NCBI RefSeq assembly: GCF_000230695.2
Contig: NC_020541.1
Location: forward strand, 124,001-188,000
Length of the DNA stretch: 64,000 bases
Reading direction: 5' to 3'
Source of the DNA: Rhodanobacter denitrificans
Lineage (GTDB): Bacteria > Pseudomonadota > Gammaproteobacteria > Xanthomonadales > Rhodanobacteraceae
Each line of letters starts with the position of its first letter. Position 1 is the first letter of the stretch. The translations under genes and the position numbers were made by a program. A model generated the notes under the pieces. The model was given only the letters and a program-made list of their open reading frames with translations. It did no database searches and was not told the origin of the DNA. Below are positions 12,701 to 63,661 of this stretch, in pieces.

Positions 12701-13840
12701 ATGATCCAATCGCTTGCCAATGCCCGCGTACTCACCCCCGACGGCTGGCGCGACGACCTCGTCGTGCTGCTGGAGGGCGAGCGCATCGCCGACCTGCTGC
12801 CGCCATCCGATCCGCGCGTGCGTGATGCGCAACAGCACGATCTTGGCGGCGCGATGCTGGTGCCCGGCTTCATCGACGTGCAGGTCAATGGCGGCGGTGG
12901 CGTGCTGTTCAACGAGGCGCCCACGGTGGAAACATTGCGCCGGATCGGCGCCGCGCATCGGCGCTTCGGCACCACCGGCTTCCTGCCGACCCTGATCAGC
13001 GACCGCGTGGAGGTGATGCGCGCAGCGCTGGCCGCGGTGGAGCAGGCGCTGGCCGAAGGCGTGCCGGGCGTGCTCGGCATCCATCTGGAAGGCCCCTACC
13101 TGGCGCCGGCGCGCAAGGGCGTGCACGACGCAAAGTATTTCCACGCGCCGAACCGCGACGAGTTGGCGCTGCTGTGCGCACCGCACCGCGGCGTGCGTCT
13201 GCTCACGCTGGCGCCGGACCAGGTGCCGACGGCCAGCATCGGTGCGCTGGTTGACGCCGGGGTGATCGTCTGCGCCGGACATACCGCAGCCGACTACGCC
13301 ACCACCCGTACCGCGCTCGCGGCCGGCGTGCGCGGCTTCACCCACCTGTTCAACGCGATGACCCCGTTCGGCAGCCGCGAGCCCGGCGTGGTCGGCGCCG
13401 CGCTGGAGGATGCCGACAGCTGGTGCGGCATCATCGTCGACGGCCACCACGTGCACCCGGCCAGCCTGCGCGTGGCGCTCGCCGCCAAGCCGCGCGGCAA
13501 GCTGCTGCTGGTCACCGACGCGATGCCGCCGGTCGGTGCGGATCGTCCCGACTACGTGCTGAATGGCGAAACGATCATCGTGAAAGACGGCATCTGCCAG
13601 ACCGCGCAAGGCGTGCTGGCCGGCTCCGCGCTGGACATGGCCAGCGCCGTGCGCAACGGCGTGGAAATGCTCGGCCTGCCGCTGGACGAGGCCGTGCGCA
13701 TGGCCAGCAGCTACCCGGCCGAGTTTCTCGGCCTGGCTGAAAGCCATGGCCGCATCGCGGTGGGCTGCCGCGCCGACCTGGTGACGCTGGATGACGACTA
13801 CCGCGTGCGGTGGCGCTGGGTTGGCGGCGTGGGAGAGTAA
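12701..13840 (+). CDS. nagA: N-acetylglucosamine-6-phosphate deacetylase
   Basis: A 379-residue amidohydrolase removing acetate from GlcNAc-6-P to give GlcN-6-P. Family signatures include PGFIDVQVNGGGGV near residue 50, the metal-site peptide GIHLEGPYLAPARKG, the CAGHTAADY histidine motif, THLFNAMTPF and LVTDAMPP with its catalytic Asp. It ends the gntR-nagB-II-nagA run and feeds NagB-II. The gap before it carries a REP-like hairpin. It is convergent with the sulfotransferase cluster. Confidence 0.95.
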   Translation: MIQSLANARVLTPDGWRDDLVVLLEGERIADLLPPSDPRVRDAQQHDLGGAMLVPGFIDVQVNGGGGVLFNEAPTVETLRRIGAAHRRFGTTGFLPTLISDRVEVMRAALAAVEQALAEGVPGVLGIHLEGPYLAPARKGVHDAKYFHAPNRDELALLCAPHRGVRLLTLAPDQVPTASIGALVDAGVIVCAGHTAADYATTRTALAAGVRGFTHLFNAMTPFGSREPGVVGAALEDADSWCGIIVDGHHVHPASLRVALAAKPRGKLLLVTDAMPPVGADRPDYVLNGETIIVKDGICQTAQGVLAGSALDMASAVRNGVEMLGLPLDEAVRMASSYPAEFLGLAESHGRIAVGCRADLVTLDDDYRVRWRWVGGVGE

Positions 13841-13896: not shown

Positions 13897-15492
13897 TCAA
13901 CCCACGCCAACCCCCTGTTCGGCGAGGGCCAGCCGCAGCGGTTCGAGTTGTTTGGCGTAGCGGCGCCACTGGCCCAGGTTGCGGGAATGCACCGGCTCGC
14001 GCACCTGCACGCTGCTTGGCGTGGCCACCGGGGCCGGGTTGTGCTCGGGATGCAGGCAGGCTTCTTCCATCGCCAGCCCGCAATGGTGCAGCACGCGGCG
14101 CATGGTCGCCTCGGGCTCGTTCACCAGGGCGGCATAGGAAACCTCGAGCATGGCCCCGGGCATGCTGGCCCGCCAGTGGTTCGTCAGGCGTACATACTGG
14201 CCGTAGTAATGGGCGAGCGCCTGCTGGTCGTAGCAGTAGGGCGAAGCCTTGCCGAACATGACCTTCAGGTTGGAATAGCACACGTCCATCGGCTCACGCG
14301 CCAGGTGCAGGATGGGCGCACGGGGCAGCGCCCGGCGTATGAACGGCACCATCCGCACGTTGATCGGCAACTTGTCGATGTAGAAGCGATGCCCGTGGGC
14401 ACGCCATTGGGTCTGCTGCAGGTAGCGCGCGCCGAGTTCCGCAAAATCCATCCCCGCGCTGCGCTCGATGGCCTTCTGCATGCCTTGCGCGCTTCGTGGC
14501 GCAACATCGGCCATCCAGTGAAGCTGGTGCTGGAAGTCCGGGATCTCCCCGGCGGAAATCACCTGCGAATGACTGGACAGCATCTGGTCCAGCAGGGTCG
14601 ATCCCGATCGGGGCATGCCGACGATGAAGATCGGCATGGGGCCGGCAAACTCCGCCGCGGCGTCGGTTACTGCCGCCGCGAGGGACTCCGGAATGCCGAC
14701 CAGTGCGTCGGTCAGTGCCGCTTCGGCCTGCGCATCGTAGGGGTTGATGTCGTACATGAGGGCATTGCTGCGTGCCAGTGCCGACCACGCCTCGTCGTGG
14801 CGCCCGCAGTCGTCGTGCACCTTGAAGATCGCGGATTCGAACTCGGCGCGGGCGAACTTGTCGCGCCCATCGGTGCTTGCTGCGGAGATTCGTCCGAGCG
14901 ATTCCCGGAAAAGCTCCAGATGGTTGGCTTCCGGTGTCTGCCGGCGCAGGTTCGCCAGGATCACCGCGGCATCGCCGTAGCGCGGCCAGCGTCGCAGACA
15001 GGCCAGCAGCACCGCTTCGGCTTCGGCAAGCCTGCCCAGGAACTGGTACAGCATGGCATCCAGGTAATACTCGCTGCTGGTGTCGACGCCAAGGGCCACG
15101 GCCCGATCCATCAGCGCCCGCGCCACCGGGATCTCGCCGAGTGCCCAGCGCAGGTGGGCCTGCTCGCTGAGCACTTCCGCCGGCGGGTTTGGCGCGCGTG
15201 CCAGGTGCGCGAGACAGGCGCGCGCACCCTGGATCTCGCCGTTCGTGGACAGACGCCATGCCAGTTGCGCGATCAGGCTGGCGTCGTTTGGCAGCAACGG
15301 GATGGCCTGCAGCAGATGCCGGGTTGCGGCACGCATCCTGCCCCGACGGAGAATCACGTCGGCCAGTGCCATGTGGATGGACACGTCGTGCGGCTCGTGC
15401 TGCGCGAGCGACTCGAGTGCGGCCTGCGCCGCATCCCATTGCCCGGCATCCATGGCTTGCTGGGCCTGGCGGCGAAGACGGTCAGCTGTCAT
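13897..15492 (-). CDS. TPR-repeat sulfotransferase, paralogue 1
   Basis: A 531-residue protein. Residues about 1-230 are helical tetratricopeptide-type repeats (for example QWDAAQAALESLAQHEPHD and GEIPVARALMDRAVALG). The remainder is a sulfotransferase domain with the PAPS 5'-phosphosulfate loop FIVGMPRSGSTLLDQ near residue 293 and the region AREPMDVCYSN in place of the 3'-phosphate site. No signal peptide or membrane segment is seen, so it should act in the cytoplasm. I start it at the ATG at 15492, aligned with its two neighbours. It is the last of three tandem paralogues downstream of a TonB-dependent receptor. The substrate is unknown. Confidence 0.88.
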   Translation of the reverse strand: MTADRLRRQAQQAMDAGQWDAAQAALESLAQHEPHDVSIHMALADVILRRGRMRAATRHLLQAIPLLPNDASLIAQLAWRLSTNGEIQGARACLAHLARAPNPPAEVLSEQAHLRWALGEIPVARALMDRAVALGVDTSSEYYLDAMLYQFLGRLAEAEAVLLACLRRWPRYGDAAVILANLRRQTPEANHLELFRESLGRISAASTDGRDKFARAEFESAIFKVHDDCGRHDEAWSALARSNALMYDINPYDAQAEAALTDALVGIPESLAAAVTDAAAEFAGPMPIFIVGMPRSGSTLLDQMLSSHSQVISAGEIPDFQHQLHWMADVAPRSAQGMQKAIERSAGMDFAELGARYLQQTQWRAHGHRFYIDKLPINVRMVPFIRRALPRAPILHLAREPMDVCYSNLKVMFGKASPYCYDQQALAHYYGQYVRLTNHWRASMPGAMLEVSYAALVNEPEATMRRVLHHCGLAMEEACLHPEHNPAPVATPSSVQVREPVHSRNLGQWRRYAKQLEPLRLALAEQGVGVG

Positions 15493-15663
15493 CGGGATGT
15501 CCACGATGGGGATGGGGAGCGGGTATTCGCGCATGTCTTGGCTCGACCAATGCAGCAAGGCATGGCCCGTCGGGCGGCAGCCTGGACGATGCTGCCTCGC
15601 CCCATGGAAACCCGCCAGGGCCGGCGGTGCCGGGCATGCCTGCCACCTGCGTACAAGGCGGGC

Positions 15664-17289
15664 TCACGCAAGGCCATGGATCTGACGCGGCGCTCGCTCG
15701 AGCGCGAGTCGCAAGGGTTCCAGCGGCCCTGCATAACGCTGCCACTCGCCGAGGGTGCGCTGATGGATCGGTTCGCGCACCTGGGCGCTGCTTGGCGTAG
15801 CCACCGGGGCCATGTTGCGTTCGGGATGCAGGCAGCCCTCTTCGACCGCCAGTCCGCAGTGCTCCAGCACCCGGCGCAGGGTCGCTGCCGGCTCGCTCAC
15901 CAGCGACGCGTAGGGAACGTCGAGCATCGCCCCGGGCATGCGCGTGTGCCAGTGATTGGTCAGTCGCACGTACTGTCCGTGGTAGTGGGCCAGCGTCTGC
16001 ATGTCGTAGCTGTAGGCGGAGGCGGGGCCGAGCATGGCCTTGAAGTTGGAGAAGCACACGCCCATCGGTTCGCGGACCATGTGCAGGATCGGCGCATGCG
16101 GCAGCGCGCGGCTTATGAGATGCACCATGCGGATGTTGATCGGCAACTTGTCGATGTAGAACCGGCGCCCCTGCGCACGCCATTGCGTCTGCTGCAGGTA
16201 GCGGGCGCCCAGTTCCGCGAAGTCGATGCCCACGCTGCGCCGCTGTGCGGTCAGCATGCCTTGAACGCCACCCGGGGGAACGTCCGTCATCCAGCGCAGC
16301 TGTCGGCGGAAGTCGTTGATCTCGCCGGCCGAAACCACCTGCGAGTGGCTGGAGAGCATGCGGTCGAGCAGGGTCGTGCCGGATCGGGGCAGGCCGACGA
16401 TGAAGATCGGCGTGGCGTCGCCGGGGGGCGGGGCCGGCCTGGCGAGCTTCGCCGCGAGGGCCTCGGATGCGTGGATGATCGCATCGGTCACGGCCGTCTC
16501 GCCTGCCGCGTCGTAGGGGTGCAGCGCGTGCATGATGGCATTGCTGCGCGCCAGCGCCTGCCATGCCTCGTCCGGGCAGCCGAGGTCGTCCAGCTCCTTG
16601 AAAAGCGCCGACTCGAATCCGGCACGGCTGGCCAGGATTTCCGCGGCATTGCTGTCTTGCGGCATCCGCCGAAGCCGCTCGCGCAACAACCCGAGGTCGT
16701 TGGCTTCCGGCGTTTGCCTGCGCACGTTCGCCAGCGCCACCGCCGCGTCGCCGAAATCCGGCCATCGCCGCAAGCACGTTTCAAGCATGCCGCGGGCCTG
16801 GGCGATGTTCCCGGTGAACTGCGACAGCATCGCGTGCAGGTAGCAGGCATCGGGTGTTTCGACCCCCGCTGCGCTTGCGCGCTCCATCAGGGCCATCGCC
16901 GCGGGTATCTCACCCAGCATCCAGCGCAATTGCGCCTGCTCGGCCAGCAGCGGAGCCGGCGGATCGGGTGCCCGCTCGAGGCGGTCGAGGCAGCTCCGTG
17001 CGGCCACGATTTCGCCATGGAAGTACAGCCGCCGTATCGTCTGCACGAGCAGGCGAACGTTGCCGGCGGGAAGCCGGGCGATTTGCAGGAGCTGGCGGGT
17101 CGACGCCTGCAACTGGCCGCGCCCGAGCAGCAGGTTGGCCAGTTCCATGCGGGCGGGGGCATCGTCGGGCACTCGCTCGAGCAGCGCCTCCAGGGTGATC
17201 TGCGCGGCGTCCGTCAGGCCGGCGTCCAGGTACTGTCTGGCGCGGCGGCGGAGGCGGCTTTCCGCGGCGGAGATGTCATCGGCGGTCAT
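15664..17289 (-). CDS. TPR-repeat sulfotransferase, paralogue 2
   Basis: A 541-residue protein built like its neighbours: helical TPR-like repeats up to about residue 230, then a sulfotransferase domain with FIVGLPRSGTTLLDR near residue 300 and VREPMGVCFSNFKAM further on. The stretches GARYLQQTQWRAQG and YIDKLPINIRMV are nearly identical in all three copies, pointing to gene duplication. The start at ATG 17289 is set by alignment of the N termini (MTADDISAAESRLRRRARQ); a longer upstream frame reads into the next gene. Spacing is 76 bp to copy 3 and 171 bp to copy 1. Confidence 0.88.
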   Translation of the reverse strand: MTADDISAAESRLRRRARQYLDAGLTDAAQITLEALLERVPDDAPARMELANLLLGRGQLQASTRQLLQIARLPAGNVRLLVQTIRRLYFHGEIVAARSCLDRLERAPDPPAPLLAEQAQLRWMLGEIPAAMALMERASAAGVETPDACYLHAMLSQFTGNIAQARGMLETCLRRWPDFGDAAVALANVRRQTPEANDLGLLRERLRRMPQDSNAAEILASRAGFESALFKELDDLGCPDEAWQALARSNAIMHALHPYDAAGETAVTDAIIHASEALAAKLARPAPPPGDATPIFIVGLPRSGTTLLDRMLSSHSQVVSAGEINDFRRQLRWMTDVPPGGVQGMLTAQRRSVGIDFAELGARYLQQTQWRAQGRRFYIDKLPINIRMVHLISRALPHAPILHMVREPMGVCFSNFKAMLGPASAYSYDMQTLAHYHGQYVRLTNHWHTRMPGAMLDVPYASLVSEPAATLRRVLEHCGLAVEEGCLHPERNMAPVATPSSAQVREPIHQRTLGEWQRYAGPLEPLRLALERAPRQIHGLA

Positions 17290-17365
17290 CGGGAGTGGCG
17301 GCCCTGGCGGGGTGGCGGCAGCGCTTCCGCGCCGTGGCGCCGGTCGGCGGTGCGGGCGGGCGTCG

Positions 17366-18988
17366 TCACGATGGCTGCGCCTGGCCGGGAAACTCGTCCA
17401 GCGCCTGGCACAGCGGTTGCAGTTGCGCGGCGTAGTTCTTCCACTGGTCGAGGCTGCGGGTATGGATGGCCTCGCGCACCTGGCCGCTGCTCGGCGTGGC
17501 CACCGGCGAGGTATTGAGCTCCGGCTGCAGGCAGCCTTCCTCCAGTGCCAGCCCGCAATGCTCGAGCACGCCTCGCAAGGTGTTCCCGGGATCGCGCACC
17601 AGGGCGGCATAGGGAACATCGAGCATGGCGTGCGGAAGCCGGGCATGCCAGTGCCGGGTCAGGCGCGCATATTGCCCGTGGTAATGGGCCAGCGCCGGCA
17701 GGTCGTAGCTGTACGGCGAGACGTTGCCGAACATCGCCTTGAAGTTGGAGAAGCAGGTGTCGATCGGATCGCGCACCATGTGCAGGATCGGCGCCTGCGG
17801 CAAGGCCCGACGGATGAACGCGACCATCCGGAAGTTGGCGGGCAGCTTGTCGATGTAGTACGTGCGCCCCTGGGCGCGCCACTGCGTCTGCCGCAGGTAG
17901 CGTGCGCCCAGCCCGGCGTAATCGATATCCGCACTGCGCCGAATGACTTCCAGCAGTTCGCGCGACCCGGCCGGAGCCACGTCGGTGACCCAGTGCAGTT
18001 GGCGCCAGAAGTCGATGATCTCGCCGGCGGAGGCGATCTGCGAATGGCGGGACAGCATCCGATCGAGCAGGGTCGTGCCCGAGCGCGGCATGCCGACGAT
18101 GAAGATGGGCGTGGGGCCCTCGAACGCTGAGGCCGACGTCGCCTGGGACCTGTCGTCCGGCGTGGGCATGCCCATCAGCGCGTCGGTGACGGCGGCCTCG
18201 GCGTCGGCGTCGTACGGATTGAGCTCGTGCATGATGGCGTTGCACCGCGCCAGCGCGGGCCACGCCTCTGCGTAGCGCTGGAGATCGTCCAGTATCTTGA
18301 ATTGCGCGTACTCGAACTCGGCACGGACGAACCGTGCGGCGGGATCCGGGTCGTCGGCGGGAAGGCGGCGCAGCTGCGCCTGCACGTGGCCCAGCGGATG
18401 GCTTTCCGGCCGCTGCCTGCGCAGGTTCACCAGCGCCATCACCGCGTCGCCGAATTGCGGCCAGCGCTCCAGGCAGCCTTCCAGTACGGTGCTGGCGCGG
18501 TCGATGTCGCCGCTGAACTGAAGCAGCATGGCGTACAGATGCAGTTCGCCTGGCGCATCGGCGCCGGCCGCGAGGGCTTTCTCGATCAGCGTCTTCGCCG
18601 CGGCGATCTCGCCGAGGCCGAAGCGCAGATGTGCCTGCGCGACCAGCAGCTCAGGGGGCGGGGCGGGGGCCCGGGCGAGGAGATCGAGGCAGCTGCGGGC
18701 GGCAGGAACTTCGCCAAAGGCGATCAGGCGTTTCGCCACGCCGACGATCAGCGGGCCATTCCGTGGCAGCCGGGCCGCGACCCGCAGCATCTGTGCGCTC
18801 GCTTCACGCAACCGGCCGCGCCTGAACAGGACATCGGCCAGCTCGACCATTACCGCAGCGTCGTGCGGCAGCTGTCGGGCAAGCGACTCCAGGACAGCCT
18901 GCGCAGCGCCCCATTGTCGGCCGTCGATGTGCTGCCGGGCGAGCATGCGCAGGCGGTTTTCCGCCGTGCCGGTGTCCTGAGGATTCAT
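17366..18988 (-). CDS. TPR-repeat sulfotransferase, paralogue 3
   Basis: A 540-residue protein, first of the tandem set in transcription order. TPR-like helices fill the N-terminal half and the sulfotransferase domain carries FIVGMPRSGTTLLDR near residue 303, MVRDPIDTCFSNFKAMFG and YIDKLPANFRMV. Sulfotransferases of this type move sulfate from PAPS to a hydroxyl or amino group on sugars, lipids or peptides; the acceptor here is unknown. It begins about 130 bp beyond the terminator of the TonB-dependent receptor, so it probably has its own promoter. Confidence 0.88.
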   Translation of the reverse strand: MNPQDTGTAENRLRMLARQHIDGRQWGAAQAVLESLARQLPHDAAVMVELADVLFRRGRLREASAQMLRVAARLPRNGPLIVGVAKRLIAFGEVPAARSCLDLLARAPAPPPELLVAQAHLRFGLGEIAAAKTLIEKALAAGADAPGELHLYAMLLQFSGDIDRASTVLEGCLERWPQFGDAVMALVNLRRQRPESHPLGHVQAQLRRLPADDPDPAARFVRAEFEYAQFKILDDLQRYAEAWPALARCNAIMHELNPYDADAEAAVTDALMGMPTPDDRSQATSASAFEGPTPIFIVGMPRSGTTLLDRMLSRHSQIASAGEIIDFWRQLHWVTDVAPAGSRELLEVIRRSADIDYAGLGARYLRQTQWRAQGRTYYIDKLPANFRMVAFIRRALPQAPILHMVRDPIDTCFSNFKAMFGNVSPYSYDLPALAHYHGQYARLTRHWHARLPHAMLDVPYAALVRDPGNTLRGVLEHCGLALEEGCLQPELNTSPVATPSSGQVREAIHTRSLDQWKNYAAQLQPLCQALDEFPGQAQPS

Positions 18989-19120
18989 TCGGGCATAGTA
19001 ACTTCAGGGGCGGGAAAACGTGCGCTCCACCGCGGTGTTCCACGTGCCTTGCCGAGGTCGCGCCCGCGCTGGCCGGGTCCCGCCGGATCGTCGTGGACGC
19101 GCGCCGCCGTGGCCACCTCA

Positions 19121-19152
19121 AAGAAAAAGCCACCGGCCGGAGCCGGTGGCTT
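19121..19152 (-). terminator. Rho-independent terminator of the TonB-dependent receptor gene
   Basis: A perfect 9-bp stem GCCACCGGC (19129-19137 against 19142-19150) followed on the minus strand by TTTTTCTT. It lies 25 bp after the receptor stop. Confidence 0.9.
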
Positions 19153-19177
19153 TCAAGACGCGAATCAGCTCGTACGA

Positions 19178-22100
19178 TCAGTAGTCGTAGGTTACCGACA
19201 GGCGAACCGTGCGCGGCGGCTGGAAGAAGATGCCGTCGCCGTAGCTGTTGTTGATGTTGAGGGTATTGGTGGTCCGGTTGTACGAGCTGTTGCCGGCCGG
19301 ATCGGTCTGCACGGCCCTCTGCTGGTCCAGCGCGTTGAAGATGTCCAGATTGATCCCGAGCTTGTTGTCGGCAAACGCCGGCGCGTAGTGGATGCCGAGG
19401 TTGAGCTGCTCGGTCCACGGCGTATGGCCGAGGGTACCCGCCGGGTAGCGCACGCCATTGCACCAGTGATAGTTGCCGCTGCCGTAGTTGTTGTAACCGG
19501 ACGGATCGCCCGGCTTGCCCGGGCCATAGTAGGCCTTGCCCGAACCACCCACGCCGTAGTAACCGAGGCACTCCTTCGGATAGCCGGACTGCGCCAGCAG
19601 CGTCGCGGACACCAGCCACTCCGGGGTGATCTGGTAGGCGCCGCGGATGCGCAGCTGGTGCTTGCGGACGTTGGCGAGCTCGCCGTTCGCGCCGTCCATG
19701 AGCTGCCAGGAATCCCAGTCTTCGGTCTTGGACACGTCGGCCTGGCCGAAGTCGGAGCGCACCTGGCCCTCGGTGTTGCCGAAGCCGCGGGTGTAGGTGT
19801 AGTCCACGCGCGCCTGCCACTTGCCGTCGAACGGATGCTCCAGGTACAGGTTCAGCGAGCCGGTCTTGCGCTTCACGCCCTGCTGGTAACCCCAATCCTT
19901 CTGGCTCATCGTGACGAGAAGGTCGGGATGGGTGCTGTCGCTCGACTTCACCAGAATGTCGTTGGTCAGGCCCGGGTTGATCAGGCGGCAGTAGCTGGCA
20001 CCGTACAGTGAATCGTAGTAGGCGCCGCCCAATGCGGCCGGGTCCACGCCTTGGGCCACCATCTTGTTGCCGATCCGGCCCGGCGAGCACTCGTCGTCGA
20101 TGGCGGTCTTCAGGTCGCGCCACATCGCCTTGGCGCCGTAGGTCCAGCTGTCGTTGAGCTTCTTGTCGAAACCGACGATGAACTCATCCAGGTACTCGGC
20201 CTTCAGGTTGCGCGCGGTGACCTGCTGCGGGTCCTTGGGCAGACCCTTCTCGCCATCCGGCGAAGTCGTCGCCGGGTCGTCCAGCGTCGCCAGGCCGGTC
20301 GGGATGCCGTTGGCGTCGATGCCGGTGTAGCTGTAGTTGGTGGTGAGGTAGGTCGAGATGTTTGCCGCGCGTTCCGCCGCGTTATCCGGCAGCGCAAGGT
20401 AGTAGCGCCCCGCGTTGCCGTAGATCTTGAACGAGGAGTCGCCGTTCACGTCCCAGCTGGCGCCGATGCGCGGTTCCCACTGGTTCTTCTCGTCGACGAA
20501 CGCCTTGCCCACATCGTTGTAGTTGGTGAAGTGGTCATTGCGCACGCCGATGTCCAGCAGCAGGTTCGGCAGCACCTGCCAGCTGTCCTGCAGGTAGTAG
20601 GCCTTCTGGGTCATCGTCATGCTGGTCTGCCAGCCGATCTCGCGCTTCTGCACGACGCCGCCTGCGAGGTAGCGCCAGTAGTAGTTGATCGACGGGTTGA
20701 ACGGGTTCTGCTGGTTCGGGCCCTGGTTGCGGGCCTTGTAGGTCATGTTGTCGATGCCGACGGCAAGGTCGTGGTCACCCAGCCGGTAATCGAAGTCGAC
20801 GCGCAAACCATGGGTACCGTTGGTTGCGTTGCTCGCGGACCAGCTGGTGTTGGTCTGGTTGTTGGTGATGCCGTTCGGCCCCGTGCCCGGCGGCAGGTAG
20901 GCCGGGTTCTGGTTGTAGGGGCGGGAAATGAACGGCAACGGGCTGGTGTTGCCATAGATCGTCGGGTTCTGGAAATTCGCCTTGCCGTACAGGATGCTCA
21001 GCGTGGCCGCGTCGGTGATGTAGCTGGTGAAATGGCCAAGGTAGAACTGGGCGTTGTCCTTGGTCACGTCGTTGTTGGCGACGAAGGCACCCGACTTCAG
21101 CGTGTTGTAATCGAACGCGTAGGTGGCTCCTGCGCCGCTGCGGGAACGGTTGTTCAGCGCGGTCAGCTCGAGGATGTTGCTGTCGGTGATATTCCAGTCC
21201 AACTTGCCGTAGAACTTGGTGTCCTTGTCGTTGTTGTACTGCACCTTCTGGTTGGACGCGATTTCCACGTTGTTGGACTGCGTCTCGGAGGTCTCGGCCG
21301 CCAGGAACATGAACAGCTTGTCCTGAATCAGCGGGCCACCGACGTAAGCGGAGTAGATCGTCTGCCACTGCTTGTTGTCGTTGCGGTACTGGTGCAGCGT
21401 GCCCGCCAGGGCCGGTTTTTCCAGCGCGTAGTTGACCTGGCTGGTCGACGCCGGGACGGTCGGGTGGCCGTAATAGTTGTTGACCGGGGTCCCTTCGAGG
21501 AACCTCGGCTCCCAGGCCACCTGGGCGCCGAAATGCCACTCGTTGGTGCCGCGCCTGCCGAGCTGGTTGATCACGCCACCGTCGGAGCGGCCGTACTTGG
21601 CGTTGTAGCCGCCGGTGAGCGTTTCCTGCTGGTCGATCGCGCCGTAGGGCAGCTGGAAGCCGCCCAGGTTCTTGTACGGCTCGCCGGTGTTGTAGCCGTT
21701 CACGTAGTACGCATTCTCAGTCACGCTCGAACCGCCGAACGAGACCAGCGAGTGCCCGCCCGGGCCGTTGAAGAAGTTGCTGCCACTGGTGGTGCCTGGC
21801 GCCAGCAGGGCGATGGACTCCGCGTTGCGGCTGACCGGCAGCTTGCGCAGGTCGGCGGCGGTGATGACCGTGCTGGAACTCACGCTGGAGACGTCGATGG
21901 CCGGCAGCGCATTGGCCGAGACGGTGACCGCGCTCAGCGAGGTGGTTTCGGCGCTGAAGGTGACTGCCGTGCCGGCGCCGGGCGCCAGGGACACCTTGCG
22001 CGAGTCGACGACCGCGCCATCCTTCTTCAGCGAGACCGTATAGGTACCCACCGGCACGTTGCTGATCTGGAAACGCCCGGAGCTATCGACAGCAACCTCG

Positions 22101-22279
22101 CGCGTCAGGCCCGAAGCGTTGGTGGCGCTGACGGTTTCGCCCGCGGCCGCCGGAGCCTGGCCGAAGATCGAGCCCGTGGTGGACTGGGCCATGGCGACGC
22201 CGCCGAGACTCATGCTCAGGGCTACGGCCAGAGCGGTGTGGCGCCACCTCGGATTATGTATTTTGTTGTGCCTGCTCAT
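19178..22279 (-). CDS. TonB-dependent receptor, Oar-like, with carboxypeptidase-type regulatory domain
   Basis: A 1033-residue outer membrane protein. A signal peptide (about residues 1-31, ending AMAQ) is followed by an Ig-like carboxypeptidase regulatory domain (about 33-110; GRFQISNVPVGTYTVSLKKDG). Then come the plug (ITAADLRKLPVSRNAESIALLAPG, then GGHSLVSFGGSSVTENAYYVNGYN) and a 22-strand-type beta-barrel ending in LSVTYDY with a terminal aromatic residue. Oar-type receptors import large substrates such as peptides or are used in protein secretion. It is upstream of, and on the same strand as, three sulfotransferases. Its -35/-10 can be read at 22444-22473. Confidence 0.92.
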   Translation of the reverse strand: MSRHNKIHNPRWRHTALAVALSMSLGGVAMAQSTTGSIFGQAPAAAGETVSATNASGLTREVAVDSSGRFQISNVPVGTYTVSLKKDGAVVDSRKVSLAPGAGTAVTFSAETTSLSAVTVSANALPAIDVSSVSSSTVITAADLRKLPVSRNAESIALLAPGTTSGSNFFNGPGGHSLVSFGGSSVTENAYYVNGYNTGEPYKNLGGFQLPYGAIDQQETLTGGYNAKYGRSDGGVINQLGRRGTNEWHFGAQVAWEPRFLEGTPVNNYYGHPTVPASTSQVNYALEKPALAGTLHQYRNDNKQWQTIYSAYVGGPLIQDKLFMFLAAETSETQSNNVEIASNQKVQYNNDKDTKFYGKLDWNITDSNILELTALNNRSRSGAGATYAFDYNTLKSGAFVANNDVTKDNAQFYLGHFTSYITDAATLSILYGKANFQNPTIYGNTSPLPFISRPYNQNPAYLPPGTGPNGITNNQTNTSWSASNATNGTHGLRVDFDYRLGDHDLAVGIDNMTYKARNQGPNQQNPFNPSINYYWRYLAGGVVQKREIGWQTSMTMTQKAYYLQDSWQVLPNLLLDIGVRNDHFTNYNDVGKAFVDEKNQWEPRIGASWDVNGDSSFKIYGNAGRYYLALPDNAAERAANISTYLTTNYSYTGIDANGIPTGLATLDDPATTSPDGEKGLPKDPQQVTARNLKAEYLDEFIVGFDKKLNDSWTYGAKAMWRDLKTAIDDECSPGRIGNKMVAQGVDPAALGGAYYDSLYGASYCRLINPGLTNDILVKSSDSTHPDLLVTMSQKDWGYQQGVKRKTGSLNLYLEHPFDGKWQARVDYTYTRGFGNTEGQVRSDFGQADVSKTEDWDSWQLMDGANGELANVRKHQLRIRGAYQITPEWLVSATLLAQSGYPKECLGYYGVGGSGKAYYGPGKPGDPSGYNNYGSGNYHWCNGVRYPAGTLGHTPWTEQLNLGIHYAPAFADNKLGINLDIFNALDQQRAVQTDPAGNSSYNRTTNTLNINNSYGDGIFFQPPRTVRLSVTYDY

Positions 22280-22689
22280 TGGTAATGATTTCCCCAGAGT
22301 GAAAGGCCCATGAGGGCCGGGTGATGCAACGCAATTGATTCATCCCAAAACAGCAGGCCGGGCATATGTCGTCGACTGCCGCCAAGTGGCCAGCCAAACC
22401 TGCCAAGGCCCGTAGCCATGCCGTTTGGGCGACCTGCCTTCTGAACATAAGGCGATGTAAATACTGCAGTCAACAAAATCTTTATGATTAATCGCCAATT
22501 AGCAAGAAGTTACGTTTCGCTATTATTTTTCCGAAAGAATCTACGGTTATCGTTTCTCGATTTCAGCTATTTGCCGGTGCGTCGCGAAGCTGTAGATGGG
22601 CACCGGAACAATCGGGTGTGGCAGGGCGGACCAGCCGTTAACGCGGCGATTCGATTGCATGTGCTCCCCGGTCGGCGCTAGAGTCGCGC
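22280..22689. other. AT-rich divergent promoter region
   Basis: A gap of about 410 bp between the TonB-dependent receptor (minus) and the cobalamin riboswitch (plus). The stretch 22440-22565 is much richer in A and T than its surroundings and holds the receptor promoter. I see no convincing gene in it. Confidence 0.6.
22444..22473 (-). promoter_or_regulatory. Sigma-70-type promoter of the TonB-dependent receptor
   Basis: On the minus strand TTGACT (22473-22468), 18 nt, TATGTT (22449-22444). The leader to the ATG at 22279 would be about 160 nt. Confidence 0.5.
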
Positions 22690-22693
22690 CGTT

Positions 22694-22895
22694 CAGGTGT
22701 CCCGACGGCGCATGGCCGGAGGGATGAAACGGGAAGCCGGTGCGTGGTGTGCGAACACACTGCAAGGCCGGCGCTGCCCCCGCAACGGTAAGCGAGATCA
22801 CCGGCGGCGAACGCCACTGTGCATGGCACGGGAAGGCGCCGCTCGGGGCATGCAGGTCACCGCATGCCACTCGCCAGCCCGGAGACCGGCCCGAA
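22694..22895 (+). ncRNA. Cobalamin (B12) riboswitch
   Basis: The conserved blocks of the AdoCbl riboswitch appear in order: GGGAAGCCGGTGCG (22731 on), GCTGCCCCCGCAACGGTAAG (22773 on), GCCACTG then GGGAAGGCGC, and the B12 box with AGCCCGGAGACCGGCC near 22876. It lies 145 bp upstream of btuB on the same strand. When bound to cobalamin it should shut off btuB, probably by masking the ribosome site, since no T-run terminator is evident before the gene. Confidence 0.93.
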
Positions 22896-23039
22896 CGCTT
22901 CCTGGTGGCTCGCGGTGGGCGAGGCCGAACCACGTGTCGGTCGTTGCCGCCTGCCCGTCGTTCCGTCTTCCTCCCTCGCTTGCCGCCAGCTCATTGAACC
23001 CATGAGCCGTGCGCGGGTGCACGGCGTAGAGGAACGAAC

Positions 23040-24887
23040 ATGAAGAAGACCCTGCTGGCCGCGGCACTGCTCGGCGGCACGCTGGCCGCCCACGCGGCCG
23101 ACCAGAACGCGGCGTCGGCGCTGGCGCCGGTGATCGTCACCGCCACGCGCACCGCGATCACCGCCGACCAGGCGCTGTCGTCGGTGACGGTGATCACCCG
23201 CGCCGACATCGAGCGGCTGCAGCCGCTGTCGGTGCCGGACCTGCTGGCCGGTCTGCCCGGCCTGAGCTTCGCCAACAGCGGCGGCTACGGCCAGCAGACC
23301 TCGCTGTTCCTGCGCGGCAGCAACTCCACCCACACCCTGCTGCTGGTCGACGGCGTGCGGGTGGCCTCGGTCAGCGCCGGGCTGGCGGCGTTCGAGCAGA
23401 TCCCGGTGGAGCAGATCGAGCGCATCGAGGTGGTGCGCGGCCCGCGTTCGAGCCTGTACGGCGCCGACGCGATCGGCGGGGTGATCCAGATCTTCACCCG
23501 GCGTGGTACGCCGGGCGGCGGCCTGCAACCCTCGTTCAGCGTGACCACCGGCAGCAACCGCCTGCTGCGCGGCCAGGCTGGACTGTCCGGCGGCGATGGG
23601 CACGCCTGGTACAACCTCGGCGTCGGCGCCCAGTACACCCGTGGCATCAACGCGTGCCGCATCGGCGCGGCCGAAGCGTTCGCCGGCTGCTTCACCGACG
23701 AGCCGGACCGCGACGCCTTCCGCAACAAGAACCTCAGCGCCAGTGGCGGCTATCGCTGGGACAATGGCGCCGAGCTCACCGGCACCTGGCTGCGCAGCCT
23801 CGGCGAGATCCATTTCGACGGCAGCTACCAGAACCGCAGCCGCACCCTGCAGCAGGTTGCCGGCAGCAGCTTCAGCTTCAATCCGCTCCCGGCGTGGAAG
23901 ACCACGCTGAGCGTGGGCCAGAACCTGGACCGCTACGACAACTACGAGAACCGGGACTTCGTCGGCTACATCTACTCGCGGCGCAACCAGGCGGCGTGGC
24001 AGAACGACCTCAGCATGGCCGACAACCAGCTGCTGACCCTGGGTGTCGACTGGCAGGGCGAGCACATCGACAGCGACACCGGCTTCCTCGCCAGCCGCCG
24101 CAACAACACCGGCGGCTACGTGCAGTACCAGGGCACGTTCGGCCGCCACGAGGTGCAGCTGTCGGCGCGGCGCGACCACAACGGCCAGTTCGGCGACCAC
24201 AACACCGGCGCCGCGGCGTGGGGCTACCACTTCGATCATGGCCTGCGCCTGTCGGCCAGCTACGGCAGTGCGTTCCATGCGCCGACCTTCAACGACCTGT
24301 ACTACCCGTACGGCAGCGGCAACCCGCAGCTGAAGCCGGAGCAATCGCGCAGCGCCGAACTGGGCCTGAGCCAGCAGCAGGATGCGTGGAACTGGGCGCT
24401 GAACGCCTACCAGACCCGCATCGACCAGCTGATCGCGCTGGACGCCAACTACTTCCCGTCCAACATCAGCAAGGCGCGCATCCGGGGCGTGGAAGGCCAG
24501 CTCGGCGCGACCCTCGCCGGCTGGCAGCTGCAGGGCTACCTGACCTGGCTGCAGCCGCGCAACGACGACGGCGGCGCCAACGACGGCAAGTGGCTGCCGC
24601 GCCGGCCCGGGCGCACCGCGCGACTGGACCTGGACCGGCGCTATGGTGCGTTCGGCGTGGGCGCCAGCGTCAACGCGGCCGGACGCAGCTACGACGACGC
24701 GGCCAACCGCCACCCGCTGGCCGGCTACACCACCGCCGACCTGCGCACCAGCTGGCACTTCGCGCCGGACTGGCAGCTCGAGGCGCGGCTGGCCAACGTG
24801 TTCGACCGCCACTACGAGACCGTGTGGTACTTCAACCAGCCCGGCCGCGGTGCGTTCCTGACCTTGCGCTACAGCCCGGCGCGCTGA
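23040..24887 (+). CDS. btuB: Vitamin B12 outer membrane receptor
   Basis: A 615-residue TonB-dependent transporter of the BtuB type. A signal peptide (residues 1-19, ending AHA) is followed by a TonB box (APVIVTATRT, residues 29-38), the plug (SVPDLLAGLPG, SLFLRGSNSTHTLLLVDGVRV, VEVVRGPRSSLYGADAIGGVIQI) and the barrel ending in an aromatic-rich strand (FLTLRYSPAR). Length fits BtuB (about 600). The riboswitch just upstream confirms corrinoid as the substrate. Ribosome site GAGGAACGAAC. No other B12 gene follows; a strong hairpin closes the unit. Confidence 0.94.
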   Translation: MKKTLLAAALLGGTLAAHAADQNAASALAPVIVTATRTAITADQALSSVTVITRADIERLQPLSVPDLLAGLPGLSFANSGGYGQQTSLFLRGSNSTHTLLLVDGVRVASVSAGLAAFEQIPVEQIERIEVVRGPRSSLYGADAIGGVIQIFTRRGTPGGGLQPSFSVTTGSNRLLRGQAGLSGGDGHAWYNLGVGAQYTRGINACRIGAAEAFAGCFTDEPDRDAFRNKNLSASGGYRWDNGAELTGTWLRSLGEIHFDGSYQNRSRTLQQVAGSSFSFNPLPAWKTTLSVGQNLDRYDNYENRDFVGYIYSRRNQAAWQNDLSMADNQLLTLGVDWQGEHIDSDTGFLASRRNNTGGYVQYQGTFGRHEVQLSARRDHNGQFGDHNTGAAAWGYHFDHGLRLSASYGSAFHAPTFNDLYYPYGSGNPQLKPEQSRSAELGLSQQQDAWNWALNAYQTRIDQLIALDANYFPSNISKARIRGVEGQLGATLAGWQLQGYLTWLQPRNDDGGANDGKWLPRRPGRTARLDLDRRYGAFGVGASVNAAGRSYDDAANRHPLAGYTTADLRTSWHFAPDWQLEARLANVFDRHYETVWYFNQPGRGAFLTLRYSPAR

Positions 24888-58485: not shown

Positions 58486-61236
58486 ATGAACTACCGCAAG
58501 ACATTGCTAGCCGCGAGCATCGTCGCCAGCCTGTGTGCATCCGGCGTGCTGTACGCCCAGGACGCCGCGCAGGGCGGCCCCGCCAGCCAGAGTCGCGCCG
58601 ACAAGGCCAAGGCGAAGGAGCTTGCCACCGTCACCGTCGTCGGCATCCGCGACAGCGAGGCCGAATCGCTGGCGCTGAAGAAGGATGCCGCCTCGCACGT
58701 CGAGGTGGTCACCGCCGAAGACATCGGCAAGCTGCCGGCCAAGAACGTGGCCGACACGCTGCAGCGCCTGCCCGGCGTCAACATCAGTTCGTCCAGTGCC
58801 AGCGAGGGCGGCTTCGACGAGAGCGACCGCGTCAGCCTGCGCGGCACCGCGCCCAGCCTCACCCAGACCCTGGTCAACGGGCACAGCGTGGGCACCGGCG
58901 ACTGGTTCGTGCTGAGCCAGGTGCAGACCGTGGGGCGCAGCGTCAGCTACACCCTGCTGCCATCGGAGATCGTCAGCCAGGTGGTGGTGCACAAGACTTC
59001 CGAGGCCCGTATCGTCGAAGGCGGCAGCGCCGGCTCGGTCGACATCATCACCCGCAAGCCGCTGGAGTTCGCCAAGCCGGTCACTGCCGAGGCGTCGATC
59101 GGCGGCGTGTACTCGGACCTGCCCGGCGACACCAAGCCGCAGTTCAGCGGCCTGTTCAACTGGAAGAACGACGCCAACACCGTCGGCGTGCTGGTGCAGG
59201 CCTTCTACGAGAAGCGCAGCCTGCAGCGCAACGGCCAGGAGATCGTGGGCGGCTACAACCAGATCGGCGCCAACGACCCGATCGCCGTCGCCCATCCGGA
59301 CCTGGCCGGCGTCTACTACCCCAACCTCACCGGCGCGGCGCTGTTCACCCAGCAGCGCGAGCGCAAGGGCGGTGTGATCGACTTCGAGATCAAGCCCACC
59401 GACAACCTCACGCTGGACCTGAGCGGTTTCTACTCCAAGCTCAAGGCCGACAACTACAACCGCAACTACCTGATGTGGGCCAGCCAGTTCGTGCCCTCGG
59501 GTGCGGGCCTGCAGCCGGGCTACACGGTCAGCAACAACGTGCTGACCAACGCGGTGTTCGCCCCGGTGGCCGGCAGCACCACGCCGTACGGCGTGTACGA
59601 CCAGATCTCGCGTCCCGGCGCCTCGTCCGAGTCCAAGTACCTCACGCTGGGCGCCGACTGGCGCGTCACCGACCACTTCGACCTGAAGGGCCAGATCGGC
59701 ACCACCCGCGGCAGCGGCGCCAGCCCGACCCAGGACGTGATCGAGCTGGGCACCGCCGTGGGCGCGGGCGCCAACTGGATGATGCGCGGCATCGGCCAGC
59801 CGACCAACTGGAACCTGGGCGGTGACAACAGCTCGCCGTCGGGCATCTATCCGCAGGCCGGCTGGATCTTCGGCGGCCAGGGCATCAAGGTGAAGGACAA
59901 GGAGGACTGGGCGCAGTTCGACGGCGAACTCAGCTTCGACGACGGCGCGCTCACCTCGCTGCAGTTCGGCGGCCGCTACGCCAAGCACGAGCGCAGCAAC
60001 CCGTTCGAGGTGGCGCAGGGGCCGAACTGGGCCTCCGACTGGCAGAACCCGGCCGCCTATCCGACCAGCCACCAGAACTACCCCGGCGACTTCGGCAGCT
60101 CGCTCGGCGGCAGCTTCCCGTCCGACATCTGGTACTACACGCCGGGCCAGCTGGCGCAGATCGATGCGCAGTTCGCCAACCGCGACCCGGTCAGCCGCTT
60201 CTACTTCAACGACATCTACAAGGTGCAGGAGAAGGATTCGGCCGCCTACGTGCAGCTGAACTGGGAGTCGGGCATCGCCAGCGGCAACGTCGGCGTGCGC
60301 TACGTGAAGACCGACGAGACCATCGGCTACACCAGTACCGCACCGGACGCGGAAGCCAGCAGCGTCACCGGCCCGATCACCGGCTCGGCGTTCGGCGACT
60401 ACTACTGGAACGTCTACAAGCACAGCTACGGCAAGCTGCTGCCCAGCGCCAACCTGAAGTTCGACATCAACGACCAGTGGGTGGCACGCTTCGCCGCCTC
60501 GCAGACGATGACCCGTCCGGACTACTCCGCGCTGGCCGGCTCGGTGTCGGCCGACGACCTGACCCACACCGGCAGCGGCGGTAACCCCAAGCTGAAGCCG
60601 CTGATCTCGACCAACTTCGATGCGGCGGTGGAGTGGTACTTCGCACCGCGCGGCCTGCTGTCGGCCGGCGTGTACGCGATGAACCTGAAGGACTACGTCA
60701 GCTTCGGCAACCAGGTGCGCAGCTTCAAGGACCTGCAGGCCACCCAGAACGCCGGCCACGACGTCTACTCGGACTACCTGATCAGCGTGCCGACCAACGT
60801 CAACGGCAAGGTGCGCGGCGTGGAGCTGAACTACATCCAGCCGATCGGCGACAACTTCGGCGTGCAGGCCAACTACACCTACGCCGACGGTCATGCCACC
60901 GGCGACAAGCCGCTGCAGGGCACCTCGAAGAACACCTACAACGTGTCGGGCTACTTCGAGAACCAGCGCTTCAACGCGCGCATCAGCTACACCTACCGCT
61001 CGCAGTTCTACGCCGGCGTGAGCCGCACCGACACCTACTTCCAGCAGGGCATCGGCAACCTCGCCGCCTCGTTCGGGGTGAACATCACCGACTGGATGGC
61101 GCTGTCGCTGGACGCGATGAACCTCAACAAGCCGAAGCTGAAGTACTACACGCAGAACGCGGCCTACGGCAAACAGCCGTACGCGTTCTACGACAACGGC
61201 CGGCAGTACTACCTCAACCTGCGCTTCAAGCTCTGA
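58486..61236 (+). CDS. TonB-dependent receptor of the GlcNAc/chito-oligosaccharide type
   Basis: A 916-residue outer membrane transporter. A signal peptide (about 1-24, ending LYAQ) is followed by a linker, a TonB-box-like ELATVTVVGIRDS (about 46-58), the plug (VEVVTAEDIGKLPAKNVADTLQRLPGVNISS, VSLRGTAPSLTQTLVNGHSV) and a barrel ending in YLNLRFKL. It belongs to the TonB-dependent receptors common in carbohydrate-utilisation loci of Xanthomonadales and Caulobacter. It lies after glk and before a secreted hexosaminidase, so it probably imports chitin fragments. Ribosome site GGGGAGGAG. A strong terminator follows, so GH20 is a separate unit or relies on read-through. Confidence 0.92.
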   Translation: MNYRKTLLAASIVASLCASGVLYAQDAAQGGPASQSRADKAKAKELATVTVVGIRDSEAESLALKKDAASHVEVVTAEDIGKLPAKNVADTLQRLPGVNISSSSASEGGFDESDRVSLRGTAPSLTQTLVNGHSVGTGDWFVLSQVQTVGRSVSYTLLPSEIVSQVVVHKTSEARIVEGGSAGSVDIITRKPLEFAKPVTAEASIGGVYSDLPGDTKPQFSGLFNWKNDANTVGVLVQAFYEKRSLQRNGQEIVGGYNQIGANDPIAVAHPDLAGVYYPNLTGAALFTQQRERKGGVIDFEIKPTDNLTLDLSGFYSKLKADNYNRNYLMWASQFVPSGAGLQPGYTVSNNVLTNAVFAPVAGSTTPYGVYDQISRPGASSESKYLTLGADWRVTDHFDLKGQIGTTRGSGASPTQDVIELGTAVGAGANWMMRGIGQPTNWNLGGDNSSPSGIYPQAGWIFGGQGIKVKDKEDWAQFDGELSFDDGALTSLQFGGRYAKHERSNPFEVAQGPNWASDWQNPAAYPTSHQNYPGDFGSSLGGSFPSDIWYYTPGQLAQIDAQFANRDPVSRFYFNDIYKVQEKDSAAYVQLNWESGIASGNVGVRYVKTDETIGYTSTAPDAEASSVTGPITGSAFGDYYWNVYKHSYGKLLPSANLKFDINDQWVARFAASQTMTRPDYSALAGSVSADDLTHTGSGGNPKLKPLISTNFDAAVEWYFAPRGLLSAGVYAMNLKDYVSFGNQVRSFKDLQATQNAGHDVYSDYLISVPTNVNGKVRGVELNYIQPIGDNFGVQANYTYADGHATGDKPLQGTSKNTYNVSGYFENQRFNARISYTYRSQFYAGVSRTDTYFQQGIGNLAASFGVNITDWMALSLDAMNLNKPKLKYYTQNAAYGKQPYAFYDNGRQYYLNLRFKL

Positions 61237-61285
61237 CGCCGAAGTTCGACCCCGGGCCACGGACGGCCCGATCCTCCCCAACCGG

Positions 61286-61320
61286 GCCCGGACCGTGCGT
61301 TGCCGGGCCCGCTTTTTTGC
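61286..61320 (+). terminator. Rho-independent terminator of the TonB-dependent receptor gene
   Basis: GGGCCCGG (61286-61293) pairs with CCGGGCCC (61305-61312), followed by GCTTTTTT. Confidence 0.9.
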
Positions 61321-61354
61321 TAGCGTGTTCCACTTGCCGCGACGGAGACCGCCG

Positions 61355-63661
61355 ATGACCCGCCGTTTGATCCTGTTCGGCTGCGCGATTCTGGCGCTGG
61401 GCGGCGCCGGCTTCGTCCGTGCTGCCGCGCCGCCGGTGCCTGCGCTGTTGCCGCTGCCGGCGCAGCTGCACGTCGACGCCGGCCGCTTCACCGTCGATGC
61501 GCGCACGCCGATCGTGCTGGCCGACGATGCCGCCTCGACCCGGCGCACCGGCGCGTGGCTGGCCGGCCTGCTCGCGCACACCCGCGGCCTGCCGCTGCCG
61601 CTGCAACGCGGCGCGGCGACCACCGCACGCGCGATCGTGCTGCAACGCGATCCTGCTGCGCCGGTGGCGGACCGCGAGGGCTATGCGCTGGATATCACGC
61701 CGCAAGGCATCCGGGTCAGCGCGCGCGACGACGCCGGCCTGTTCTACGGCGCGGTAACCCTGTGGCAACTGCTCACGCCCGATGCGCAGCAGGGCGCGGT
61801 CGAGCTGCCGGCGCTGTCGATCCGCGACCAGCCGCGCTTCGCCTGGCGCGGGCTGATGCTGGATTCGGTGCGGCACTTCCAGAGCGTTGCCGAGATCGAG
61901 CGGTTGCTGGAGCAGATGGCCCAGCACAAGCTCAACACCTTCCACTGGCACCTCACCGACGACCAGGGCTGGCGCATCCAGATCAAGCGCTACCCCGAGC
62001 TCACCCGCATCGGCGCGTGGCGCACCTCGCCTGATGCCGGGCACGACGGCCAGCCGAGCCGCTACGGCGGCTACTACACCCAGGCGCAGATTCGCCGCAT
62101 CGTCGCCTACGCCGCCGCGCGCCACATCACCGTGGTGCCGGAGATCGACATGCCGGGCCACGCGCAGGCTGCGGTGGCCGCGTATCCGCGGTTCGGCGTC
62201 ACCGGCGCCCGTCCGCCGGTATCGGTCGACTGGGGTATCAACCCGTACCTGTACAACGTCGACGACGCCACCTTCACCTTCATCGAGAACGTGCTCGACG
62301 AAGTGATGGCGCTGTTCCCCTCGACCTACATCCACGTCGGTGGCGACGAGGCGATCAAGGACCAGTGGCAGGCCGCGCCGGCGGTGCAGGCGAAGATGCG
62401 CGCGCTCGGTATCGCCAGCGAAGACGCGCTGCAAGGCTGGTTCATCGGCCGCATCGGCCAGTACCTCGACAAGCATGGCCGCAAGCTGGTCGGCTGGGAC
62501 GAGATCCTCGATGGCGACAACCTGCCGGCTGATGCCACCGTGATGTCCTGGCGCGGTACCGACGGCGCGATCAAGGCGGCGATGATGGGCCACGACGTGG
62601 TGCTGTCGCCCGCCCCGCAGCTGTATTTCGATCACGTGCAGGGCGACCTCGCTGACGAGTACGCCGGCCGCCTCGGCGTGGAATCGCTGCAGAGCGTGTA
62701 CGCCTTCCCGACCGTGCCGGCCGTGCTGGGCGCGGCGCAGGCGAAGCACGTGCTGGGCGTGCAGGCCAACGTGTGGACCGAGCACATGCCCGCGTTCGCC
62801 CACGTGGAGCACGCCGTGTTCCCGCGGCTGGATGCGCTCAGCGAGGTGGCCTGGTCGCCAGCGACCGCGCTGAACTGGCCGGGCTTCCTCGCCCGTCTGC
62901 CGGTGCAGCTCGGGCGCTACCGCGCGCAGCACGTCAACGTGGCCGACAGCGCCTTCGCCGTGGAGATCGTCACCGAGCGCAACGTGGCGCTGGCCACCGG
63001 CCGCGCCACGGTGGCGCTGGCCAACCAGGCCGGCTTCGGCGTGATCCGCTACACCCTGGACGGCAGCGCGCCCACGGCCGACTCGCCGCGCTACGACGCG
63101 CCGCTGGTGCTGCAGCTGCCGGTCACCGTGCGGGCCGCCAGCTTCGCCGCCGACGGCAGCGCGCTGGCCGCCCCGCGCGAGCGCGTGCTCGATCGCGCCG
63201 GCCTGCTCGGCCTGCCCGGCGGCCTGCTGGCGAACTGCCCCGGCAGCGACTTCCGCCTGCGCCTGCAGCCCATGCCCGACGCGCCGAGCACCCAGCCGGT
63301 GTACGCGGTGAACGTGTTCGACGGCTGCCAGCTGTTCCCCGCCACGCGGATGGACGAGGTCGCCGCGATCCGCGTCGACGCGGTGCGGCTGCCGCGCAAC
63401 TTCGCCCTGGCGCACGAGGCGAAGCTGGTGGTGTCGCGCCCGCGCGCCACGCCGTTCGGCGAGCTGGTGGTGCATGCCGACAGCTGCGCTGGCGTGGTGC
63501 TGGCCAGCATGCCGCTGCCCGATCCCGCCCGCGGCGCGCGCCGCTTCACGCTGCAGGCCGAGCTGCCGGCGCAGCAGGGTGAACGCGCGCTGTGCCTGAT
63601 CTACACCGCGCCCACCGACGGGCCGCTGTACGCGATCGACCGCGTGGCGCTGGAGCCGTGA
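61355..63661 (+). CDS. GH20 beta-N-acetylhexosaminidase
   Basis: A 768-residue secreted glycosidase. Signal peptide about 1-23 (ending VRAA), a GH20b-type N-terminal domain (about 25-155; PLPAQLHVDAGRFTVDARTPIVL), then the GH20 barrel (about 160-500). The catalytic pair Asp331-Glu332 is in HVGGDEA, and HWHLTDDQGWRIQIKRYPELT and VVPEIDMPGHAQAA are hallmark segments. A C-terminal chitobiase-like domain (RYTLDGSAPTADSPRY) and a further beta-rich domain follow. It frees GlcNAc from chito-oligosaccharides in the periplasm. Start at ATG 61355 with GGAGA upstream. A palindromic repeat separates it from nagX. Confidence 0.95.
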   Translation: MTRRLILFGCAILALGGAGFVRAAAPPVPALLPLPAQLHVDAGRFTVDARTPIVLADDAASTRRTGAWLAGLLAHTRGLPLPLQRGAATTARAIVLQRDPAAPVADREGYALDITPQGIRVSARDDAGLFYGAVTLWQLLTPDAQQGAVELPALSIRDQPRFAWRGLMLDSVRHFQSVAEIERLLEQMAQHKLNTFHWHLTDDQGWRIQIKRYPELTRIGAWRTSPDAGHDGQPSRYGGYYTQAQIRRIVAYAAARHITVVPEIDMPGHAQAAVAAYPRFGVTGARPPVSVDWGINPYLYNVDDATFTFIENVLDEVMALFPSTYIHVGGDEAIKDQWQAAPAVQAKMRALGIASEDALQGWFIGRIGQYLDKHGRKLVGWDEILDGDNLPADATVMSWRGTDGAIKAAMMGHDVVLSPAPQLYFDHVQGDLADEYAGRLGVESLQSVYAFPTVPAVLGAAQAKHVLGVQANVWTEHMPAFAHVEHAVFPRLDALSEVAWSPATALNWPGFLARLPVQLGRYRAQHVNVADSAFAVEIVTERNVALATGRATVALANQAGFGVIRYTLDGSAPTADSPRYDAPLVLQLPVTVRAASFAADGSALAAPRERVLDRAGLLGLPGGLLANCPGSDFRLRLQPMPDAPSTQPVYAVNVFDGCQLFPATRMDEVAAIRVDAVRLPRNFALAHEAKLVVSRPRATPFGELVVHADSCAGVVLASMPLPDPARGARRFTLQAELPAQQGERALCLIYTAPTDGPLYAIDRVALEP

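Follow-up and report, generated by a model that had tools for sequence, protein, structure and literature searches.

Organization of the Locus

The window, a stretch of 64,000 nucleotides, comes from a Rhodanobacter denitrificans genome that consists of one 4.2-Mb contig. On its minus strand, three intact TPR-sulfotransferase genes lie head to tail behind the gene of an Oar-type TonB-dependent receptor (TBDR), as the first-pass annotation had described. The receptor gene (19178..22279) encodes 1033 aa and is followed by ST1 (17366..18988, 540 aa), ST2 (15664..17289, 541 aa) and ST3 (13897..15492, 531 aa counted from its ATG). In the Pfam search, the receptor matched CarboxypepD_reg, Plug, TonB barrel and OMP_b-brl_4, which gives the N-terminal extension, plug and barrel of the Oar-type architecture. 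Its structural model is that of a canonical TonB-dependent transporter that carries an extension at the N terminus, and the sequence search alone found no solved relative at E 0.001. The three enzymes matched Sulfotransfer_3 (PF13469) with 147-157 bits against a cut-off of 27, and TPR families were also matched in each. ST2 (147.4 bits) and ST3 (150.6 bits), both scanned as longer ORFs, were further placed by alignment and tree lineage. The stretches PRSG(T/S)TLLD, GARYL-QTQWRA-G and YIDKLP-N-RMV, noted in the first-pass annotation, were common to ST1, ST2 and ST3 in the alignment.

The site is flanked on the left by a nagA-like amidohydrolase gene (12701..13840, plus strand; Pfam and synteny) and on the right by a cobalamin riboswitch (22678..22908, plus strand; Rfam RF00174, 92.3 bits), behind which lies a btuB-like gene (23040-24887, plus strand; Pfam). 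The riboswitch and the btuB-like receptor gene (22678-24887) are thus divergent from the Oar-type receptor. ARAGORN called a tRNA-Gly on the minus strand within the btuB-like gene (23452-23539), which is probably a false match. Elsewhere in the window that holds the nag genes, a TonB receptor gene is followed by a GH20 hexosaminidase gene (58486-63661).

No gene for PAPS synthesis was found among the annotated window ORFs (30 ORFs scanned), which agrees with the first-pass annotation, and the single APS-kinase match of the source genome lies about 0.5 Mb from the locus. The absence of a nearby exporter, claimed at the same time, did not hold: RND and HlyD/OEP efflux genes are present in the window, beyond the btuB-like gene. 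The source genome carries not just these three but ten Sulfotransfer_3 genes at six loci. A plug domain lay within 7 kb at four of the six loci (8 of the 10 genes), with 29 plug matches in total.

Transcription Layout

A terminator hairpin on the minus strand (19118..19153), with a 12-bp stem and a 4-base loop followed by the T-run TTCTTTGA, occupies the gap between the receptor gene and ST1. It was missing from the output of a generic terminator scan. A terminator of the same kind stood between receptor and enzyme in all 10 tandem loci. Moreover, the -10-like box TACTAT lies 6 bases 5' of the ST1 start codon (18986..19000, minus strand), in the manner of a leaderless-type promoter. The pattern TACTATN6ATG had one match in the window against 0.01 expected. 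A TACTAT-like box, always at 6 bases, preceded 13 of 23 close relatives, a count that includes ST1, compared with 1 of the other 65 sulfotransferases; neither ST2 nor ST3 has one. This arrangement would be the layout of a leaderless transcript. Since the gap holds both a terminator and a leaderless-type promoter, ST1 is probably expressed separately from the receptor at this locus. The enzymes are therefore downstream in the sense of a same-strand position behind the receptor, while the terminator, present in each of the 10 tandem loci, rules out a single operon of receptor and enzymes here. In other genera, 9 of the 11 closest receptor-enzyme pairs (all within 160 bp) were tandem with small gaps and 2 were convergent, and receptor-enzyme operons are possible at other loci.

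Domain Architecture and Active Site of the Enzymes

ST1 comprises a TPR half (about residues 1-272) and a catalytic half (about residues 290-540). For the catalytic half, which has the TPST catalytic fold, the best solved relative was tyrosylprotein sulfotransferase (TPST; 8w5z, E 8.6e-17), followed by the curacin and olefin synthase sulfotransferase domains (4gbm, 4gox). The best solved relative of the TPR half was the TPR of O-GlcNAc transferase (OGT; 1w3b, E 1.1e-15), and in the enzyme model the TPR helices are predicted to begin at residue 9. R302, E323, K381 and S414 aligned with the active-site residues of TPST, and we take this Arg, Glu, Lys and Ser to have the same roles as in TPST. 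R302, E323 and S414 were invariant in 16 of 16 relatives. As set out in PMC6637879, a PAPS sulfotransferase has an Arg in the 5' PAPS motif, a Ser in the 3' motif and a Glu or His base between them; the enzymes have all three (R302, S414 and E323). The enzymes are very probably catalytically active, and they are presumably located in the cytoplasm. The likeness of the TPR half to OGT makes the earlier suggestion of polypeptide binding plausible.

Linkage of Receptor and Enzyme Within the Genus

Among the matches listed for 36 genomes of the genus, in which short enzyme-type fragments may be missing, 13 genomes had both the receptor type and the enzyme type, one (G029) had the enzyme type only, none had the receptor type only, and 22 had neither (Fisher p 6e-9, ignoring descent). 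The receptor type was taken at an identity of at least 60% (next match 54%) and the enzyme type at an identity of at least 54% (next 46%). Genome G034, which holds only fragments of both types, was counted as having neither.

At the site between nagA and btuB, receptor and enzymes occurred together in 11 genomes, and the regulator adjoining the site was found in 23. The pair was missing from the site in 16 genomes, of which 15 had neither gene there and one (G012) had a receptor alone, a more distant Oar receptor (L210:9440-12562) with no sulfotransferase. The flanking genes were also rearranged in about one third of the 15 genomes with an empty site, and G011, one of the 15, carries a receptor-enzyme pair elsewhere. 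Of the 10 sister loci at the site, 8 have a single enzyme gene and the other 2 have two.

Linkage in Wider Samples

A search of named genomes with the enzyme sequence alone gave 75 loci, 10 of which were dropped (8 with short flanks and 2 in which the enzyme ORF was incomplete). A TBDR, taken as an ORF of at least 400 aa resembling one of three window receptors, lay within 2.5 kb at 59 of the 65 evaluable loci, the nearest enzyme-receptor pair being used at each. Orthologous loci are non-independent; collapsing by shared flanking genes, which covers the named-genome loci only, reduced the 65 loci to 14 contexts, 11 of them with a receptor and one of them holding 31 loci. L154 was scored as a miss on account of its fragmented receptor gene. 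A receptor gene that appears as two ORFs beside a full-length sulfotransferase ORF was seen at L046:4270-7376, L151 and L154.

At the 59 linked loci, Oar-type pairs were tandem in 8 cases, convergent in 9 and divergent in 3, compared with 3, 35 and 1 for other receptor types. The receptor was thus of a non-Oar type at 39 loci, up to 30 of which share one genomic context. The pairing is independent of gene orientation and of receptor type.

Of the 25 enzyme loci in three single-contig genomes plus the main contig of a fourth, 14 had a plug domain no more than 7 kb away, compared with a mean of 2.5 and a maximum of 10 in random shifts (0 of 20,000 reached 14), and over all six genomes 23 of 40 loci had one, all counted among the plug matches listed (150 of 162).

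Across the phylum sample, the enzyme family was matched at E 1e-50 in 101 of 299 genomes, many of the matches being confined to the catalytic half and the final repeats before it. Twenty loci of other genera in 12 families were hand-picked from the matches listed, for high score and family spread; a TBDR lay within 160 bp at 11 of them and within 3 kb at 2 more, and was undetected at 7. Loci with a receptor fell in 5 of the 12 families and loci without a detected one in 7. The search for these receptors used a profile built here from 17 TBDRs, and the misses may therefore reflect under-detection; 10 of 10 tested receptors were confirmed by Pfam.

The view that receptor and TPR-sulfotransferases belong together was therefore borne out by co-occurrence across the genus, the named genomes and the phylum, and the pairing is real, recurrent and wide. 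Judged by titles and abstract openings, the open-licence papers searched gave no description of it, and no function of any TPR-sulfotransferase turned up in the open-licence literature searched. A term search of the main text of PLoS One 2:e224, which catalogued the TonB receptors of Xanthomonas in 2007, gave no hit for "sulfotransferase". As far as searched, the pairing is undescribed.

The link also has limits. No TPR-sulfotransferase lay within 2.5 kb of 34 of the 57 Oar receptors compared (the L173 stretch ends 950 bases from its receptor). Linkage tracks receptor lineage, being present in 13 of 13 receptors of the window's clade and 7 of 8 of a second clade, with 6 changes between linked and unlinked on the receptor tree compared with 18.2 in shuffles. 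Oar receptors as such therefore need no TPR-sulfotransferase, and certain lineages nearly always have one.

Age and Specificity of the Three Copies

In a quick enzyme tree with SH-aLRT support only, ST1 and ST3 fell into separate groups that had support of at least 95 and also contained enzymes of other species and of genera such as Dyella, Frateuria and Oleiagrimonas, while the group of ST2 had a support of only 93-94. On this tree the copies are old lineages, that of ST2 being the least well supported. Recent redundant duplication, which would have undermined the first-pass reading, is ruled out by the separate, supported lineages of ST1 and ST3, and less firmly for ST2.

Split acceptor specificity of the copies had also been proposed, and it found no support so far. 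The TPR halves of the ST1-ST3 pairs were 51-54% identical and the catalytic halves 64-71%; compared with all pairs of 16 relatives, the TPR halves showed no extra divergence (residual z 0.03, 0.98 and -0.13). The single-copy state of most sister loci points the same way. Closely related receptors adjoin ST1-type enzymes in some species and ST3-type enzymes in others, so there is no strict one-to-one match of receptor and enzyme, and the copies may be partly interchangeable. Because the TPR divergence is within expectation and the copies are perhaps interchangeable, a split of specificity is no more than possible from these sequences.

Neighboring Genes at the Enzyme Loci

Among the neighbors looked at, some of which were run against Pfam, the receptor alone recurred across contexts, the others tested being housekeeping or varied catabolic genes, and no shared biosynthetic neighborhood was apparent. 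Other neighbors of the distant pairs varied and included a Rieske oxygenase, an amidohydrolase, a TPP enzyme, a fatty-acid hydroxylase and a permease. Two candidates for a constant partner were rejected. Proteins of about 450 aa next to the enzymes were mostly mutually unrelated, and of the 10 examined 8 resembled neither a hydroxylase nor a flavin halogenase. A gene of about 740 aa in Xanthomonas and some others was glycyl-tRNA synthetase beta in 2 of 2 tested. At L135:7707-14590 and similar Xanthomonas loci, the end of glyS is overlapped by the enzyme gene, which faces the gene of a TonB receptor (Pfam on L135 only).

A second kind of TPR-fused modifying enzyme occurs at such loci. TPR-fused Asp/Asn beta-hydroxylase genes lie beside TPR-sulfotransferases and a TonB receptor at L058:5738-7165 (source genome about 3695737-3697164) and L064:4606-6015, and in another family a gene for a TPR-fused 2OG-Fe(II) oxygenase adjoins a receptor/TPR-sulfotransferase pair (L213:8524-10353). 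Tryptophan halogenase-like flavin enzymes were seen at L075:14158-15537, which is also QhpG-like below the cut-off, and at L078:12956-14380, near three and two TPR-sulfotransferases, respectively, with two TonB receptors each. Given the recurrence of the receptor and the TPR-fused hydroxylases and oxygenase, the pattern of neighbors would fit receptor-serving protein-modifying enzymes better than one sulfated-metabolite pathway.

Candidate Acceptors and Alternative Explanations

We tentatively favor, at somewhat less than even confidence, a two-component partnership of a TBDR with one to three cytoplasmic TPR-sulfotransferases, in which protein sulfation serves the partner receptor. The TPR superhelix would dock a polypeptide, and the TPST-like half would move sulfate from PAPS onto a side chain before export. 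First among the candidate acceptors would be the partner receptor itself, modified before leaving the cytoplasm, followed by a polypeptide moved by that receptor. That the acceptor is a polypeptide of some kind appears on balance probable; that it is the partner receptor is possible rather than probable. Linked receptors had fewer acid-flanked tyrosines than unlinked ones, with means of 0.91 vs 1.85 at a net acidity of at least 3 (p 0.0015) and 6.30 vs 8.12 at a net acidity of at least 2 (p 0.022), both ignoring descent. TPST-like tyrosine sulfation of the receptor, the simplest form of the idea, is therefore disfavored. The analysis detected neither an acceptor nor a product; sulfate may go to a different residue, a different protein or a small molecule.

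The last of these would mean sulfation of a compound taken up through the receptor, or of one that the cell makes, exports and retakes, with the TPR half serving assembly rather than acceptor binding. The Rieske oxygenase, amidohydrolase and TPP enzyme genes near some distant pairs suit such tailoring, as do the curacin and olefin synthase domains as next solved relatives. However, TPST outscores these domains, a TPR half resembling that of OGT is characteristic of enzymes that modify proteins, and the neighbors looked at have no apparent biosynthetic theme in common. We consider small-molecule tailoring rather unlikely.

Less likely still is a sulfated protein or peptide cargo, which the Oar-type receptor would move across the outer membrane once the enzyme has modified it. 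The Oar domain architecture is suggestive here, and precedents exist in Myxococcus Oar, which is needed for PopC secretion (PMC6434023), and in the RaxX peptide sulfated by RaxST in Xanthomonas. Against it, no conserved ORF for a small precursor was found upstream of the receptor (10 loci, one intergenic region), where the most strongly conserved of the small ORFs listed run through the riboswitch region, and many linked receptors at other loci are not Oar-type (39 of 59, up to 30 from one genomic context).

Loose hitch-hiking of housekeeping sulfation genes, through shared insertion sites or joint transfer without shared function, would account for enzymes without a detected receptor (6 of 65 named-genome loci, 7 of 20 distant loci, and G029 with the enzyme type alone), but it is very improbable, since linkage is far more frequent than random placement gives (14 of 25 vs 2.5, among the plug matches listed) and recurs with different receptor types and contexts.

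Returning to the partnership of receptor and enzymes, a recurrent receptor partner is a first handle on the acceptor of TPR-sulfotransferases. Sulfation of the receptor or its cargo would add a new layer of control to bacterial outer-membrane transport. The broader idea that bacteria sulfate their own TBDRs, or the cargo of these receptors, by dedicated TPR-sulfotransferases, as a counterpart of animal receptor sulfation by TPST, is speculative and for now doubtful; under it, sulfation might adjust how ligands bind, or shield the receptor from phages and bacteriocins that use it.

Comparison With Known Systems

TPST1 and TPST2 (PF13469) resemble the enzymes described here in the fold and sequence of the catalytic half, including the aligned active-site Arg, Glu, Lys and Ser. 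TPSTs work in the Golgi as stand-alone enzymes and have no TPR half, whereas the enzymes here are predicted to have TPR helices from model residue 9, and their partner receptors have no excess of acid-flanked tyrosines. OGT likewise joins a TPR superhelix to a protein-modifying catalytic domain, although other TPR proteins fit the TPR half equally well. OGT transfers sugar rather than sulfate and has a different catalytic fold.

Myxococcus xanthus Oar shares the CarboxypepD_reg N-terminal extension, plug and barrel with the receptor; its known role is protease (PopC) secretion, and a sulfotransferase partner goes unmentioned in the consulted portion of its description (PMC6434023). RaxST (PMC6637879) is a bacterial TPST-like, PAPS-using enzyme of the same order; encoded in the raxX-raxSTAB cluster, it modifies the RaxX peptide and is accompanied by a type I exporter. 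Nothing resembling raxX was noticed at the locus here, the dedicated search having covered small ORFs upstream of the receptor. The locus also differs in combining a TPR half with a TBDR, where RaxST has a type I exporter.
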